Shown in pieces: positions 46,673-52,248 of a DNA stretch of 64,000 bases. The stretch is taken from assembly GCF_026222555.1 (NCBI RefSeq), contig NZ_CP098511.1:62001-126000 (forward strand). Reading direction: 5' to 3'. The notes beneath the pieces are model-generated. The model searched no databases. It saw only the letters and a program-made list of their open reading frames with translations, and had not been told where the DNA came from. The DNA is from Aquimarina sp. ERC-38. GTDB taxonomy: Bacteria > Bacteroidota > Bacteroidia > Flavobacteriales > Flavobacteriaceae. The stretch's first letter is position 1. Each line of letters opens with the position of its first letter. Both the position numbers and the translations under genes were made by a program.

Positions 46673-47761
46673 TTAAGCTTTAGCTACACTTACACTCTTC
46701 TGATGGTTGATAGATTCCTGATGGATAGCTTTATAAATCCTTAAAATAAATTCTTCGCTTAATCCATTTTCTTCTCCTTCCAGGATCATCCTGCCTAAAA
46801 TCTCGTTCCATCGCTTGGATTGCAAAATAGCCACATTTTGACTGGCTTTGATTTTACCAATCTCATCCGAAATTCGCATACGTTTTGCTAAAACTTCTAA
46901 TAGCTGATTATCAGCAATATCAATTTTTGCTCGTGATTCAGTTAAAGCACTTTGATAAGCTTCATCCTCTCCGACTTCTTTACGGATTTTCAAATCTTTC
47001 ATGATTTGCACCAATCGCTCCGGGGTAATTTGCTGTTTAGCATCACTCCAGGCATTATCCGGATCATAATGAGTTTCTACAATCAATCCGTCAAAATTAA
47101 GGTCTAATGCAGTTTGAGATAAATCAAATATCAATTCCCGGTTTCCGGCAATATGAGACGGGTCTAAGATTAAAGGCAAGTCCGGAAAACGGTTTTGCAA
47201 GTCTATCGGTATTTGCCATTCCGGTATATTTCTATATTTTGTTTTTTCATAGGTAGAAAAACCTCTGTGTATAACGCCCAGATTTTTTACATCACAAGTA
47301 TAAAAACGCTCTACCGCACCTAACCATAGGGATAAATCCGGATTGATTGGGTTTTTAATAAGTACCGGGTTATCAATACCTCGACAAGCTTCGGCGATAT
47401 CCTGAACGATAAATGGAGAAACGGTACTCCTGGCTCCAATCCACAATACATCCACTCCGTGTTTTAATGCTAATTCCACGTGATGCGGATTTGCAACTTC
47501 AGTAGCGATTTTTAGACCTGTTTCTTCTTTTGCTCGTTGTAACCATTTTAATCCTAAAGCTCCTACTCCTTCAAAGTTTCCCGGGCGGGTTCTGGGTTTC
47601 CAGATTCCTGCTCTTAATACGGTGGCGTCCGTATCTTTTAACTGATGTGCAATAGTGACTACCTGATCTTCGGTTTCTGCACTACAAGGTCCTGCTATTA
47701 CCAGCGGATGATCGAGGTTATAGGTATCCAGCCAGGTTCTTAGTTCTTTCTTATTTTCCAT
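46673..47761 (-). CDS. Bifunctional DAHP synthase / chorismate mutase (type II)
   Basis: A 362-residue fusion. Residues 1-260 form the KDO8P/DAHP synthase-like barrel (VIAGPCSAETEDQ, RAGIWKPRTRPGNFEG, ILDPSHIAGNRE). Residues about 275-350 form an AroQ-type chorismate mutase (ESRAKIDIADNQLLEVLAKR, IGKIKASQNVAI). It condenses phosphoenolpyruvate with erythrose-4-phosphate and converts chorismate to prephenate, so it feeds both Phe and Tyr branches. It is the last gene of the four-gene operon, 36 bp after tyrA. Confidence 0.94.
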   Translation of the reverse strand: MENKKELRTWLDTYNLDHPLVIAGPCSAETEDQVVTIAHQLKDTDATVLRAGIWKPRTRPGNFEGVGALGLKWLQRAKEETGLKIATEVANPHHVELALKHGVDVLWIGARSTVSPFIVQDIAEACRGIDNPVLIKNPINPDLSLWLGAVERFYTCDVKNLGVIHRGFSTYEKTKYRNIPEWQIPIDLQNRFPDLPLILDPSHIAGNRELIFDLSQTALDLNFDGLIVETHYDPDNAWSDAKQQITPERLVQIMKDLKIRKEVGEDEAYQSALTESRAKIDIADNQLLEVLAKRMRISDEIGKIKASQNVAILQSKRWNEILGRMILEGEENGLSEEFILRIYKAIHQESINHQKSVSVAKA

Positions 47762-47797: not shown

Positions 47798-48649
47798 TTA
47801 TCTATCAATTCCGTTTAAAATCGATTTAATTCTATTCGCTGCTTCCATTTCAGCATATACTTTTTCAAAATCGTCTTCTTCCAGTAACTTCTGAAACCAG
47901 GATAGGTTTGAAATATATTCTTTTAAAGTTTCCAACACATTTTCTTTATTATGTTCAAAAATAGGTGTCCACATCGCCGGCGAACTTTTTGCCAACCGAA
48001 CGGTTGAGGCAAAACCGCTTCCTGCCATATCAAAGATATCTTTTTCATTCTTTTCCTTTTCAATTACCGTCTTCCCTAACATAAATGAACTTATATGTGA
48101 TAGGTGAGAAACGTAGGCAATATGCTTATCGTGAGAAGCCGGATCCATATATCGAATTCGCATCCCTAATTTAGAAAAGATTTCCAATCCTTTTTCCTGT
48201 AACTTAAATGCTGTTTTTTCTACTTCGCATATGATATTAGTCTTATTTCTATACAGATTTGCTATCGCCGCTTTAGGCCCGGAAAATTCTGTTCCGGCTA
48301 TAGGATGTGCTGCTAAATAATTTCGACGCTTTTTATGATCATTTACTTTAGCACATAATTTTTGCTTGGTCGAACCTGCGTCAATAACCAGGCAGTCATC
48401 CGGAACCAAATCCAATACTCTAGGTAGAATGGTTAAGGTACTATTGACCGGAATGGTTATAATGACCACTTCGGCTTTATTAATATCTTCAAGAATAGCT
48501 TTATGATCAATAATTCCCAGTTCTAAAGCTTGTTGCAAATGAGAATTGTTCTGATCAATACCAAAGATTTCTGACTCTTTGAATGCTGACTTTATATCAA
48601 TAGCAAAGGAGCCGCCTATCAAACCTATTCCGATTATATAAACTTTCAT
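47798..48649 (-). CDS. tyrA: Prephenate dehydrogenase
   Basis: A 283-residue NAD(P)-dependent enzyme that oxidatively decarboxylates prephenate to 4-hydroxyphenylpyruvate. The Rossmann fold is GIGLIGGSFAID (residues 7-18). The substrate pocket includes DAGSTKQKLC, HPIAGTEFSGPKAA and YVSHLSHISSF with its conserved His. There is no chorismate mutase domain here because it is fused to the DAHP synthase encoded next. The start overlaps the aminotransferase stop by 4 bases. Confidence 0.94.
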   Translation of the reverse strand: MKVYIIGIGLIGGSFAIDIKSAFKESEIFGIDQNNSHLQQALELGIIDHKAILEDINKAEVVIITIPVNSTLTILPRVLDLVPDDCLVIDAGSTKQKLCAKVNDHKKRRNYLAAHPIAGTEFSGPKAAIANLYRNKTNIICEVEKTAFKLQEKGLEIFSKLGMRIRYMDPASHDKHIAYVSHLSHISSFMLGKTVIEKEKNEKDIFDMAGSGFASTVRLAKSSPAMWTPIFEHNKENVLETLKEYISNLSWFQKLLEEDDFEKVYAEMEAANRIKSILNGIDR

Positions 48650-49815
48650 AAACTAACTTTATGATGTTGCAAGCGTTCTATTGCTTCTGCTATTTTTTCT
48701 TTAGAAACACATAAAGAAAACCGAATATATCCTTTTCCATTACTTCCAAAAATGGAACCCGGGGTAATAAATACATCATTTCTGTACAAGATGTTGTCGA
48801 TGAAAGAAACATCATCCGCATTATTTCCGGGTAATTTAGCCCAAACAAACATCCCCGTAGCATTTTTATCATAGCTGCAATTGAGTTGATCCGCGAGGTT
48901 CCATATATAGTTTCTACGCTCCTGATAGATAGTATTTATCTTATTGTACCAGGAAGCTGAACTTTGTAACGCAACAATTGCTCCTTTTTGCAAACCGTAA
49001 AACATACCGCTATCCATATTACTTTTTACCTTAAGTACTGCTTCAATTTTATCAGCACTTCCGGCTAACATCCCTACTCTCCATCCAGCCATATTAAAGG
49101 TTTTACTTAAGGAGTTTAGTTCAAGAGCTACCTTTTTTGCGTCGGGAATACTTAATATGCTTAAAGGCTGTTCGTTTAATACAAAACTGTATGGATTGTC
49201 ATGAACTAATAATATATGATGCTTAGTAGCAAAGTCAATTAATTGCTGAAACAATCCTTTAGAAGCCGGAGCTCCGGTGGGCATATTGGGATAATTTACC
49301 CACATTAACTTCACTCCGGATAAATCTTGCTTTTCTAAGGTTTTAAAATCCGGGTACCAGTTATTTTCTGCTTTTAGATCATAAAAAAGCGGTGAAGCCC
49401 CTACAAGATTAGTGATAGCTGCATAGGTCGGATATCCGGGATTCGGGATTAACACCTGGTCTCCTTCATTAAGATATGCCATAGAGATATGCATAATTCC
49501 CTCTTTGGAACCTATTAAAGGCAAAATCTCATTTACAGGATTTAAAGAGACTTCATATCTCTCCTGGTAAAAAGTAGCAAATGCTTCTCTAAGTTCCGGT
49601 AATCCCTGGTAACTCTGGTATTTATGTGCGCCAGGCATGGTAGCAGCCTGCTGGATTTCTTTAATTACCTGCACGGGTGGTTCTAAGTCCGGGCTACCGA
49701 TCGCCATATTGATAATCGATTTACCGGAAGCAGCCAGTTCTCGCACCTCCCGTAATTTTCTAGAGAAATAATATTCCTGGACGGTTTCTAATCTTTTAGC
49801 GGTTTGTACACTCAT
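48646..49815 (-). CDS. Class I/II PLP-dependent aminotransferase (aromatic)
   Basis: A 389-residue fold-type I aminotransferase. The Schiff-base lysine is in NSLSKTFNMAGWRVG (about residues 235-249). It also has the N-terminal MAIGSPDLEPP and the NPGYPTY and NYPNMPTGAPA loops. Its place between prephenate dehydratase and dehydrogenase makes it the likely enzyme that aminates phenylpyruvate and 4-hydroxyphenylpyruvate. It is tightly coupled, with 4-base overlaps on both sides. Confidence 0.9.
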   Translation of the reverse strand: MSVQTAKRLETVQEYYFSRKLREVRELAASGKSIINMAIGSPDLEPPVQVIKEIQQAATMPGAHKYQSYQGLPELREAFATFYQERYEVSLNPVNEILPLIGSKEGIMHISMAYLNEGDQVLIPNPGYPTYAAITNLVGASPLFYDLKAENNWYPDFKTLEKQDLSGVKLMWVNYPNMPTGAPASKGLFQQLIDFATKHHILLVHDNPYSFVLNEQPLSILSIPDAKKVALELNSLSKTFNMAGWRVGMLAGSADKIEAVLKVKSNMDSGMFYGLQKGAIVALQSSASWYNKINTIYQERRNYIWNLADQLNCSYDKNATGMFVWAKLPGNNADDVSFIDNILYRNDVFITPGSIFGSNGKGYIRFSLCVSKEKIAEAIERLQHHKVSL

Positions 49816-50720
49816 CCGTTTTGATTTTTATATTCTCCTAAAATTTTTACGTCGTACGCCATAATATTGAGAATAGACATTGCTTTGCTAAACCCTTCGT
49901 AAGAATCAAAGGTGGTATCTATAAAAAAAGAATAGCGCCAGGGTTCATCGATAATGGGCAGGGATTGAATTTTAGTTAAATTTAAATTACAATCACTCAT
50001 CACATTAAGTACAGATGCCAGACTACCGCGTTTATGATCCGTATAAAATTTTATAGAAGCTTTATTTACTTCTGACTTAGGAATTTTTTTTGCGTTTTTT
50101 CCTTTTAAAATAAAAAAACGGGTGGCATTTGACTTAATAGTCTGAATTTCTTCAGCCAAAATGGAAAGGCCATAGATTCCGGCTGCACCTGCACCAGCTA
50201 CAGCGGCTATATTTCTTAATTGCTTTTCTTGTATTCGTTTTGCGACTTCTGCCGTATCCACATCTTCTACCAGTTTGATATGATCGTAATGGTTAAAAAA
50301 GTCTTTACATTGCAATAGTGCCATAGGGTGGGAATATACCTCTTTGATATCAGCAATTTTCTGATTGCCGAGAGCCATCAAACAATGGTGGATTGGTAGA
50401 AAATATTCGCCTACAATCTCTAGGTTATGTTCGTCAATATAAGCATAATTAGGTATGATGGAACCAGCAATGGAGTTCTCAATCGCCATGACTGCATCTG
50501 TACTTTTACCGGATTCCAGGCTCTTTACCAATTCCTGAAAAGACAGGCATTCATCAACCATTACCTCTTCTCCGAAGTATGCTTGAGCTACCTGATGATG
50601 GTAAGATCCTTTAATTCCCTGTATAGCTACGATAGTATCTATCACGTTACTTTGTTTAGAAGGCTTACTGCTTTTATAACTATATTCTTTTTTATCAATT
50701 ATGTTTGGTACTGTCTTCAT
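49812..50720 (-). CDS. pheA: Prephenate dehydratase
   Basis: A product of about 302 residues that converts prephenate to phenylpyruvate. The start MKTVPNIIDKKEY is chosen because it has a Shine-Dalgarno-like GGAAGG four bases upstream, rare in this window; a TTG four codons earlier would cover that site. The catalytic domain has IQGIKGSYHHQVAQAYF, ENSIAGSI and SNATRFFIL with the conserved Thr-Arg-Phe. The C-terminal ACT domain is FYTDHKRGSLASVLNVM ... LTKIQSLPI, so Phe feedback is likely. It is the first structural gene behind the attenuator. Confidence 0.94.
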   Translation of the reverse strand: MKTVPNIIDKKEYSYKSSKPSKQSNVIDTIVAIQGIKGSYHHQVAQAYFGEEVMVDECLSFQELVKSLESGKSTDAVMAIENSIAGSIIPNYAYIDEHNLEIVGEYFLPIHHCLMALGNQKIADIKEVYSHPMALLQCKDFFNHYDHIKLVEDVDTAEVAKRIQEKQLRNIAAVAGAGAAGIYGLSILAEEIQTIKSNATRFFILKGKNAKKIPKSEVNKASIKFYTDHKRGSLASVLNVMSDCNLNLTKIQSLPIIDEPWRYSFFIDTTFDSYEGFSKAMSILNIMAYDVKILGEYKNQNG

Positions 50721-50744
50721 AAAGCCTTCCAAAATTCATGGTAT

Positions 50745-50830
50745 AAAAAAATCCCGATGTTTATCGGGATTTTTATGTATCATATTATAAGTATTACATA
50801 CTGACCCCGCTTTTACCTTTGTGGTAAAAG
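50745..50830 (-). promoter_or_regulatory. Transcription attenuator of the Phe/Tyr operon
   Basis: It is read on the minus strand. Segment 1, CUUUUACC (50830-50823), pairs with GGUAAAAG (50817-50810). An antiterminator can form from CGGGGU (50809-50804) with AUCCCG (50770-50765) and UAUGUA (50800-50795) with UACAUA (50779-50774). The competing terminator is AAAAAUCCCGAU (50774-50763) with AUCGGGAUUUUU (50758-50747) and a U-run to 50745. A ribosome stalled on the Phe codons of the leader peptide would leave the antiterminator free. One that reaches the stop codon would cover UAUGUA and let the terminator form. Confidence 0.88.
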
Positions 50831-50871
50831 AAGAAAAAATAAAATCGGTTCCAGAATACAATACTTTTCAT
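50794..50871 (-). CDS. Phenylalanine/tyrosine operon leader peptide
   Basis: A 25-codon frame beginning MKSIVF and containing FWNRFYFFFFY (residues 6-16): six Phe, two Tyr and one Trp among 25 residues. It ends SGVSM with TAA at 50796-50794. The Phe cluster precedes and partly overlaps segment 1 of the attenuator, and the stop codon lies in the 5' arm of the antiterminator, exactly the geometry of pheL-type leaders. It has a weak Shine-Dalgarno-like GAAG. The peptide is a sensor and probably has no other role. Confidence 0.87.
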   Translation of the reverse strand: MKSIVFWNRFYFFFFYHKGKSGVSM

Positions 50872-51060
50872 TACTTCAATTTTCTGATGCTAAATTAGAA
50901 AAATAAATAGAAAGAAAGATACGAATTTAAAATAATCAGTCTACATCAAATATTATCATTAATAATCATGTCATTTTTAAAAATTATTAAAAAAATTGAT
51001 CAAATAGTTTTAAAATTATAAAGATATTTCAATACCACTATTACTAACAAACATTCGTAT

Positions 51061-52248
51061 TCAGATGATTTTTAAAGATTTACCTACGTTTATAAAAGCT
51101 TTTACTGCAAAATCAATTTGTTCCGGACTATGGGCGGCTGAAAGTTGCACTCTGATACGCGCTTTACCTTTAGGAACCACCGGATAAAAGAAGCCTATGA
51201 CATAAATACCTTCTGAGACTAATTTTGCAGCAAATTCCTGTGCCAGTTTGGCATCGTACAACATAATGGGTACGATAGGATGCTCCCCTGGGATGATATC
51301 AAAACCGGCTTCAGTCATCTTATTTCTAAATTGTTTGGTATTTGCTTCTAGTTTATCACGCAATTCCGTAGAACCGGATAAAATATTCAGTACTTTGATA
51401 GAAGCTCCTACAATGGAAGGGGCTAGCGTATTTGAAAATAGATAAGGCCTGGACTTTTGCCTTAGTATCTCCACTATTTCCTTTCGAGCAGCGGTAAATC
51501 CTCCGGAAGCTCCTCCCAAAGCTTTTCCATAGGTACCCGTTATAATATCCACTCTTCCCATTACATTACAATGCTCATGGGTACCCCGACCGGTTATACC
51601 CAAGAACCCGGTAGAATGGCAATCATCAACCATTACCATTGCTCCATAAGCGTCAGCCAGATCACAAATTTTATCCAGTTGAGCAATGGTGCCGTCCATA
51701 GAAAAGGAACCGTCAGTTACAATTAAGATACGCCGGGAGCCTTTTGCTGCAATTAATTGCTTTTCCAGATCAGCCATATTATTATGCTCGTAACGAAAAC
51801 GTTGCGCTTTACATAAACGAATTCCATCAATAATAGAAGCATGATTTAAAGCATCTGAAATAATAGCGTCTTCACTGGTAAGCAAAGGTTCAAAAACACC
51901 ACCGTTTGCATCAAAAGCCGCCGCATATAAGATACAATCTTCCATCCCAAGAAAATCTGCTGTCTTTTGCTCTAATTCCTTGTGTATATCCTGGGTACCA
52001 CAAATAAAGCGAACAGAGGACAACCCAAATCCATGACTGTCAATAGTGGCTTTGCTTGCCTGAATTACAGATGGGTCTGAAGAAAGCCCTAAGTAATTAT
52101 TTGCACAAAAATTAAGAAGGTTTTTAGTAGCCTCCGTATCAATTTCAGCTCCTTGTGGCGAAGTAATTTTTCTTTCTTTTTTATAAAGTCCTGCTTCTTT
52201 AATCGTATCCAACTCCTGGATTAATTGTTTTTTAACGCCGGTATACAT
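51061..52248 (-). CDS. kbl: Glycine C-acetyltransferase (2-amino-3-ketobutyrate CoA ligase)
   Basis: A 395-residue PLP enzyme of the alpha-oxoamine synthase family. The PLP-binding lysine is in [13 protein letters not shown] (about residues 238-250). It also has [26 protein letters not shown] and [10 protein letters not shown]. It converts 2-amino-3-oxobutyrate plus CoA to glycine and acetyl-CoA, the second step of threonine breakdown. It follows the tdh-like gene by 33 bp. Confidence 0.93.

Follow-up and report, generated by a model that had tools for sequence, protein, structure and literature searches.

The window analysed here, a stretch of 64,000 nucleotides from the genome of Aquimarina sp. 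ERC-38 (one contig of 4.43 Mb), carries on its minus strand a candidate regulatory element at 50871–50745, placed by direct reading of the sequence 12–24 nt upstream of pheA. This gene (49812–50732, minus strand) encodes prephenate dehydratase (PDT; Pfam PF00800, 188 bits) and begins either with a TTG at 50732 or with an ATG at 50720. The true start of PheA (49812–50732) is uncertain; approximately 33 N-terminal residues precede the part that aligns with relatives, and most matches begin at residue 27–35. Downstream on the same strand lie a class I/II aminotransferase (48646–49815; Aminotran_1_2, PF00155), tyrA, encoding prephenate dehydrogenase (47798–48649; PDH_N/PDH_C, PF02153 and PF20463, with NCBIfam NF006307 over its cut-off), and a DAHP synthase fused to a type II chorismate mutase (46673–47761; DAHP_synth_1 and CM_2, PF00793 and PF01817), so that Pfam agrees with the gene order named in an earlier, sequence-only reading of this DNA. 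The upstream neighbour, kbl, is on the same strand and ends at 51061, and the leader and hairpin described below occupy the gap between kbl and pheA. Loci assigned to the same genus share their leaders with loci on Aquimarina contigs (L004 with L031, L003 with L032, L006 with L033), which places the host in Aquimarina or very near it. Throughout, 'family' (Flavobacteriaceae) and 'class' (Bacteroidia) denote ranks of kinship, their names being inferred.

The leader and its alternative hairpins

The element opens with a leader peptide ORF of 25 sense codons (50794–50871, minus strand), MKSIVFWNRFYFFFFYHKGKSGVSM, which starts with an ATG at 50871 and ends with a TAA stop at 50796–50794; the aromatic-rich leader claimed by the sequence-only reading is exact to the base, and its frame is conserved. 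Codons 10–16 form an aromatic run, F10–Y16 (FYFFFFY, 50824–50844), which is preceded by W7 and contains the putative control codons, as sequence and the conservation of run positions in 130 leaders suggest. Downstream, a terminator hairpin (3:4) has arms at 50774–50763 and 50758–50747, forming 12 bp around a loop of 4, with a U-run extending to 50745; segment 3, the 5' arm, thus spans 50763–50774, and segment 4, the 3' arm together with the U-run, spans 50745–50758. An automated terminator scan of 50300–51300 returned no terminators, although the fold and a separate hairpin scan both recover this 12-bp hairpin with its U-run, as first proposed. The entire 127-nt stretch folds at −37.3 kcal/mol, compared with −18.7 ± 3.2 for shuffles (z −5.76), and in this unbound RNA the terminator coexists with a second hairpin (1:2) that joins the start of the leader to its stop region, an element absent from the list in the sequence-only reading. 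Segment 1, the 5' strand of this protector hairpin, lies within leader codons 2–7 (50851–50866 in the minimum free energy structure), and the part of segment 2 that pairs with it (50789–50804), identified by folding and by permutation and swap tests, holds the leader stop codon; the helix consists of 11 bp (nt 6–16 with 73–83), followed by 4 and 3 bp.

When a ribosome occupies codon 16, the transcript left free before the 3' arm exists (nt 59–112) folds instead into an antiterminator (2:3) of −12.0 kcal/mol. Its first helix pairs CGGGGU (50809–50804), the core of segment 2 within leader codons 21–23, with AUCCCG (50770–50765), which doubles as part of the terminator 5' arm; its second pairs UAUGUA (50795–50800) with UACAUA (50774–50779). 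Both helices had been proposed before and both return in the fold of the window, and the leader stop does indeed sit within the antiterminator's 5' arm, for 50796–50794 overlaps the UAUGUA strand. With the stop codon occupied, the window folds into 3:4 alone (−14.3 kcal/mol), while full-length RNA with codon 16 occupied prefers 3:4 (−17.1 kcal/mol). Antitermination must accordingly be kinetic, as it also is in classical attenuators.

Conservation and covariation across the family

We searched one genome for each of 149 genera in the family and found pheA in 136, retrieved the 135 loci besides our own, and applied a single rule to the upstream sequences: an ORF of 8–60 codons with at least five aromatic residues in eight and, beginning no more than 90 nt from its stop, a hairpin of 6 bp or longer that carries a T-run. 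Leader and terminator occur together upstream of pheA in 130 of the 136 family genera, whereas none of 680 dinucleotide shuffles and a single one of 136 reverse complements passes the rule; they also occur together in all 30 fetched loci of the same genus, our own included, a count which excludes three pheA matches that have no locus (G020, G025 and G027). Conservation of the leader frame, proposed with the sequence-only reading as a check, therefore extends from the genus to the family, and in these 130 genera a predicted intrinsic terminator stands between the leader and the first gene. The gene order pheA, aminotransferase, tyrA, DAHP synthase/chorismate mutase is visible at 121 of the 136 family loci, or 122 counting the window, our own fetched locus being too short to display it; because 121 loci share one gene order, there is little contrast in operon content to set against leader composition.

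Six of the 136 loci were dropped before the elements were counted (L045, L110, L114, L142, L156 and L162). L045 (g21) has the leader MATNRFYFSNNFYFFFSRS when inspected by eye, its terminator having been excluded by the gene boundary used; the other five genera lack the attenuator by our scan. Four of these five keep the same order of four genes. As natural losses, they could reveal what replaces the attenuator. Beyond the family, we picked 23 loci from the same class and 21 from the phylum by hand to spread over families. An aromatic leader is present at 17 of the 23 class loci and a terminator as well at 13, each of the 13 with an antiterminator match of 5–9 bp, for which there was no separate control; one locus of the same order in another family (L175) has no leader. 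None of the 21 loci outside the class passes the same rule, which is no proof of absence because base composition and gene order differ there.

These counts bear on the simplest alternative, that the hairpin is an ordinary terminator of the upstream kbl and the aromatic ORF an accident of T-rich DNA. The window does have a kbl-like gene upstream on that strand, the DNA there is AT-rich, and shuffling of upstream DNA is enough to yield five aromatic residues in eight in 103 of 680 cases. Against this, a kbl match is found upstream at just 2 of 136 family loci (the view mostly reaching about 1.2 kb) while leader and terminator persist in 130, the two never occur jointly among the 680 shuffles, and the leader end covaries with the terminator arm, as described below. 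A plain kbl terminator was consequently rejected, kbl being rarely upstream where the element persists, and we consider this explanation extremely improbable.

Evidence of pairing was sought in each helix. Alignment A1 contains 56 loci (8 of 29 from the same genus, all 27 of a second leader-ending type and 21 of 50 of a first type), and alignment A2 was built from one leader-ending type, taking in 46 of its 50 loci, with L048, L136, L143 and L157 omitted by hand. For the terminator, the covariation score in the 56-sequence alignment exceeds all 500 shuffles, while further pair types do not beat them (438 of 500 reach the count); 98.6% of its cells are paired, partly by construction because loci were retained for having a hairpin. 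We sorted the terminator 5' arms into 11 classes (GTCTCG 73, GTCCCG 25, GTCCTG 9, CCCGG 9, ATCCCG 4, and others), with at least 29 changes of class on the PheA tree.

For the antiterminator, 128 of the 130 family loci allow five or more contiguous pairs, G-U included, between the leader end and the 5' arm of the terminator. The pairing score averages 17.0 with a locus's own arms, compared with 13.7 ± 0.22 for permuted arms (maximum 14.3 of 200 permutations) and 10.3 for shuffled segments. A swap of arms between nearest relatives of different class, designed to allow for kinship, favoured the own arm in 38 of 48 disjoint pairs and the cross in 2, with 8 ties. Six of the eight arm classes with at least two members pair best with their own class's arms; the two exceptions, GTTCCG (3 loci) and GTCCC (2 loci), find better partners in GTCCCG arms than in their own. 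Counted over fixed alignment columns, 2:3 gives no significant signal: its covariation score is reached by 33 of 500 shuffles in A2 and by 80 of 500 in A1, and we do not rely on the A1 figure because MAFFT appears to have offset the two main clades by one column. When a single 2:3 position was followed on the tree, three supported independent pairs were available (two-state test, 108 of the 130 loci). The permutation and swap results point to a mutually exclusive antiterminator that would draw on the terminator 5' arm. The second antiterminator helix does not share this support: across the family, UAUGUA/UACAUA is no better than permuted partners (−2.54 versus −2.60 ± 0.13), and it was rejected as a general feature. 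The proposal of two helices consequently holds within the window, while family-wide support exists for the first only. A different second helix, AAUUUA/UAAAUU, is 79.3% paired in clade A2, without clear covariation.

For the protector, the mean duplex energy across 130 loci is −11.55 kcal/mol, compared with −8.01 ± 0.22 when partners are permuted, and in a nearest-pair swap the own partner was better in 43 of 65 pairs and the cross in 15, with 7 ties. In the 46-locus alignment, which represents one clade, a 9-bp 1:2 helix, its model drawn from one row of that alignment, is 92.8% paired, and none of 500 shuffles attains its covariation score; the count of further pair types is reached by 94 of the 500 and so does not stand out. 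Pairing of 1 with 2 is therefore what we find, and its effect on termination is predicted. In sum, the expectation that the stems would covary is supported by the 3:4 score, the 2:3 swap and the 1:2 score and swap, and is not supported by the fixed-column counts for 2:3.

Start signals were compared across the same loci. A predicted −7 promoter-like element of the Bacteroidota type, TAATTTAG, lies at 50890–50897 (minus strand), one mismatch from TANNTTTG, and the spacing of transcription start sites given in PMC6847099 would place initiation near 50885. The Bacteroidetes promoter consensus, as given there, is TTTG/TANNTTTG; the window has no −33 TTTG at the expected spacing, and the −7 element is present in a widened form. 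In the 80 nt that precede the leader, the strict pattern TAnnTTTG occurs at 21 of 130 loci (8.5 in base shuffles), and the pattern TAnnTT[TA]G, widened only after inspecting the sequences, at 123 of 130 (shuffle mean 16), with a TTTG 18–22 nt further up from the widened element at 76 of 130 (shuffles 0.3). Elements of the −7 kind before leaders mostly read TAnnTTAG rather than TANNTTTG. Position −3 relative to the start codon of the leader is an A in 105 of 130 loci, and a Shine-Dalgarno-like string is present in 1 of 130, a scarcity to be expected because Bacteroidota lack Shine-Dalgarno sequences, according to PMC6847099.

Ribosome spacing and a proposed mechanism

Measured from the first base of the last aromatic codon, the antiterminator strand begins 13.3 ± 1.9 nt downstream across the 130 loci, and in 114 of them it begins 9–12 nt past that codon. 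Its position relative to the stop is far more variable (−12.4 ± 5.9 nt): it falls within −19 to +12 of the stop in 124 of 130 loci, and the strand starts ahead of the stop in 121 loci and level with it or beyond in the other 9. The RNA element is retained with stops as far as 25 nt downstream and 8 nt upstream of the start of the arm, and in L028 and L058 it precedes the antiterminator strand with the ribosome-scale spacing kept. Since the spacing varies far less from the last aromatic codon than from the stop, the aromatic codons, and not the end of the peptide, appear to be the reference point. A ribosome covers approximately 12 nt ahead of the first base of its A-site codon and approximately 18 behind. 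With this footprint, a ribosome waiting at the last aromatic codon would just free segment 2, and one at the stop would cover it.

Such spacing is difficult to reconcile with a terminator run by a T-box that senses uncharged tRNA-Phe, by a metabolite riboswitch or by an RNA-binding protein, the ORF being incidental. Genes of the same kinds are controlled in these ways in other phyla. However, over the whole window every Rfam family, the T-box, Trp and His leaders included, stays below its gathering score; the conserved distance counts from aromatic codons rather than from the stop; and the antiterminator strand starts before the leader stop in 121 of 130 loci, with a run ending in F in 109 of 130. 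We regard control without a ribosome as highly unlikely. We give hardly any credence to a third possibility, that the ORF encodes a peptide with a function of its own, as a membrane peptide, toxin or signal, and lies close to pheA by chance. The peptide is indeed hydrophobic and conserved, yet its C-terminal codons (...ETLYV, ...GLL/GLF, ...GIAM, ...RVVM) change together with the terminator arm, its end shifts relative to the arm over the range given above, and none of four leaders searched matches NCBIfam.

The locus is very probably, therefore, what the sequence-only reading proposed: a transcription attenuator of the pheL/trpL type, worked by a translating ribosome, for an operon of Phe and Tyr synthesis, a reading that family-wide conservation, swap tests, covariation and spacing all support. 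The sequence elements, their thermodynamic options, conservation, covariation and ribosome-scale spacing are what the analysis shows, and from them we infer termination, stalling, an amino acid response and a start site, as follows. Transcription would start approximately 14 nt upstream of the leader ATG, with a ribosome following the polymerase. Where charged tRNA-Phe, and probably also tRNA-Tyr, is scarce, the ribosome would wait in the FYFFFFY run with its front edge just short of segment 2 (CGGGGU) and with segment 1 covered or melted; segment 2 could then pair with the terminator 5' arm before the 3' arm exists, and transcription would continue. Where the codons are read fast, the ribosome would reach the stop and cover segment 2, allowing terminator 3:4 to form. 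Where no ribosome is loaded, the 1:2 hairpin would sequester segment 2 and the terminator would form again.

Which amino acids are sensed is a question of leader composition. F occupies the last three positions of the aromatic run in 106–109 of 130 leaders, ending the run in 109, and Y stands directly before these three, at −3 from the last aromatic residue, in 91. F and Y are both present in all 130 leaders and W in 92, at positions which differ between loci and with at least 23 changes of presence on the PheA tree. Among the residues after Met in the 130 family leaders, F accounts for 23.5%, Y for 15.6% and W for 3.2%. One version of the attenuator would have Phe codons alone matter, with Tyr and Trp codons as passengers. 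The F residues at the end of the run favour this version, and E. coli pheL uses Phe codons; on the other side stand the universal presence of Y and its preferred position, an operon that makes Tyr too, and W, which occurs in most leaders and comes and goes at changing places. We consider it possible, if somewhat doubtful. Phe is the safest call as an amino acid sensed by the leader, Tyr is likely, and Trp is possible; sensing of Tyr and Trp beyond Phe is plausible.

The placement of TTT and TTC keeps T-runs in the leaders short, the mean longest run being 5.9, compared with 7.05 ± 0.12 when Phe codons are shuffled (130 leaders), perhaps through selection against slippage or early termination.

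Other amino-acid operons and known systems

Similar arrangements are seen elsewhere in this genome. Upstream of hisG, near 3643500 of the genome contig (L220, L283), a leader MNFIFLHHHHFYGIVQAR (HHHH) is followed by the terminator AAAACCCGTTTGAGCTATCAAACGGGTTTT, and a His-rich leader with a terminator was observed at 26 of 26 hisG loci in a search of 36 genomes (own, same-genus and other-family), both strands being scanned with no shuffle control. Upstream of trpE, near 2405000 (L221, L284), are a leader MKNTLQNIWWWSFEIQNS (WWW) and a terminator AAAAAGGCTTGTC..GACAAGCCTTTTT. A Trp-rich leader with a terminator was observed at 24 of 25 trpE-like loci examined, again with no shuffle control; this count leaves out weak PF04715 matches that are probably other enzymes (L222, L275–L279). 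By eye, no leader with terminator was seen before two thrA-like genes (L280, L281) and ilvD (L282) of this genome, and the few terminator-like hairpins upstream of thrA-like and ilvD genes have no leader ORF in front. Attenuation may not cover every amino-acid operon of this genome.

A broader and more tentative proposal is that one leader pools the charging of tRNA-Phe, tRNA-Tyr and tRNA-Trp, and that it is ancestral to Bacteroidia together with the His and Trp leaders, as an attenuation regulon working without Shine-Dalgarno sites; we put this forward as a conjecture that may well prove wrong. If true, the persistence of a three-in-one attenuator would imply that ribosomes closely trail RNA polymerase in Bacteroidia. 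Attenuation of this kind works only if a ribosome trails the polymerase closely, so conservation of the element throughout the family is itself indirect evidence for coupling of transcription and translation in Bacteroidota. Because the geometry is shared across the family and the leader carries several kinds of aromatic codon, the mechanism can be tested directly. With a covariance model of the element, a regulator and a small ORF could be annotated upstream of pheA in 130 of the 136 genera sampled from the family.

Attenuation of pheA in flavobacteria is already in print as strong clues. For F. psychrophilum, a 2021 paper (PMC9723704) describes, in its section on these elements, strong clues that leader peptides attenuate amino-acid operons, together with 5' elements preceding pheA and hisG which are conserved in other genera and have no Rfam hits. 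These structured 5' regions concern the same gene in the same bacterial family as our element; that section contains neither a leader sequence nor a model of the pairing nor a test of covariation. For B. thetaiotaomicron, PMC7366714 notes short ORFs that resemble leader peptides. Experimental proof of leader-peptide attenuation in Bacteroidota was not found in the open-access literature searched, and the present work offers a precise, testable model of amino-acid control for a phylum in which the literature we found reports such attenuation just as clues. A survey by Lopatovskaya et al. in 2010 may anticipate part of the finding.

Among Rfam models, RF01859 (Phe_leader) is the top sub-threshold match on this stretch and strand, at 25 bits (E 0.059) against a gathering score of 55. 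Among 10 relatives it matched the leader in two, L194 with 39.3 bits and L132 with 29.2 bits (below a MicC match there), and it scored 28.1–33.4 bits at three stretches away from leaders; because the leader is matched in just two of ten relatives and scores are similar elsewhere, the likeness is largely generic. Membership of RF01859 was rejected, the score here and the best score for a relative's leader both falling below the gathering score.

In T-box riboswitches, too, a terminator ahead of biosynthesis genes responds to the supply of an amino acid; here, in contrast, the predicted sensor is a translated ORF, and there is no T-box match in the window. With the trpL and hisL attenuators the element appears to share its logic, the amino acids and operons being other ones. 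The closest architecture is that of pheL, in which an aromatic-rich leader, a 1:2 protector, a 2:3 antiterminator and a 3:4 terminator lie upstream of pheA. Our element follows the same plan of leader and 1:2, 2:3 and 3:4 pairings before pheA as this gammaproteobacterial Phe leader; unlike pheL, its leader would read Phe together with Tyr and, in many loci, Trp, and tyrA and the DAHP synthase/chorismate mutase belong to the operon which it precedes.
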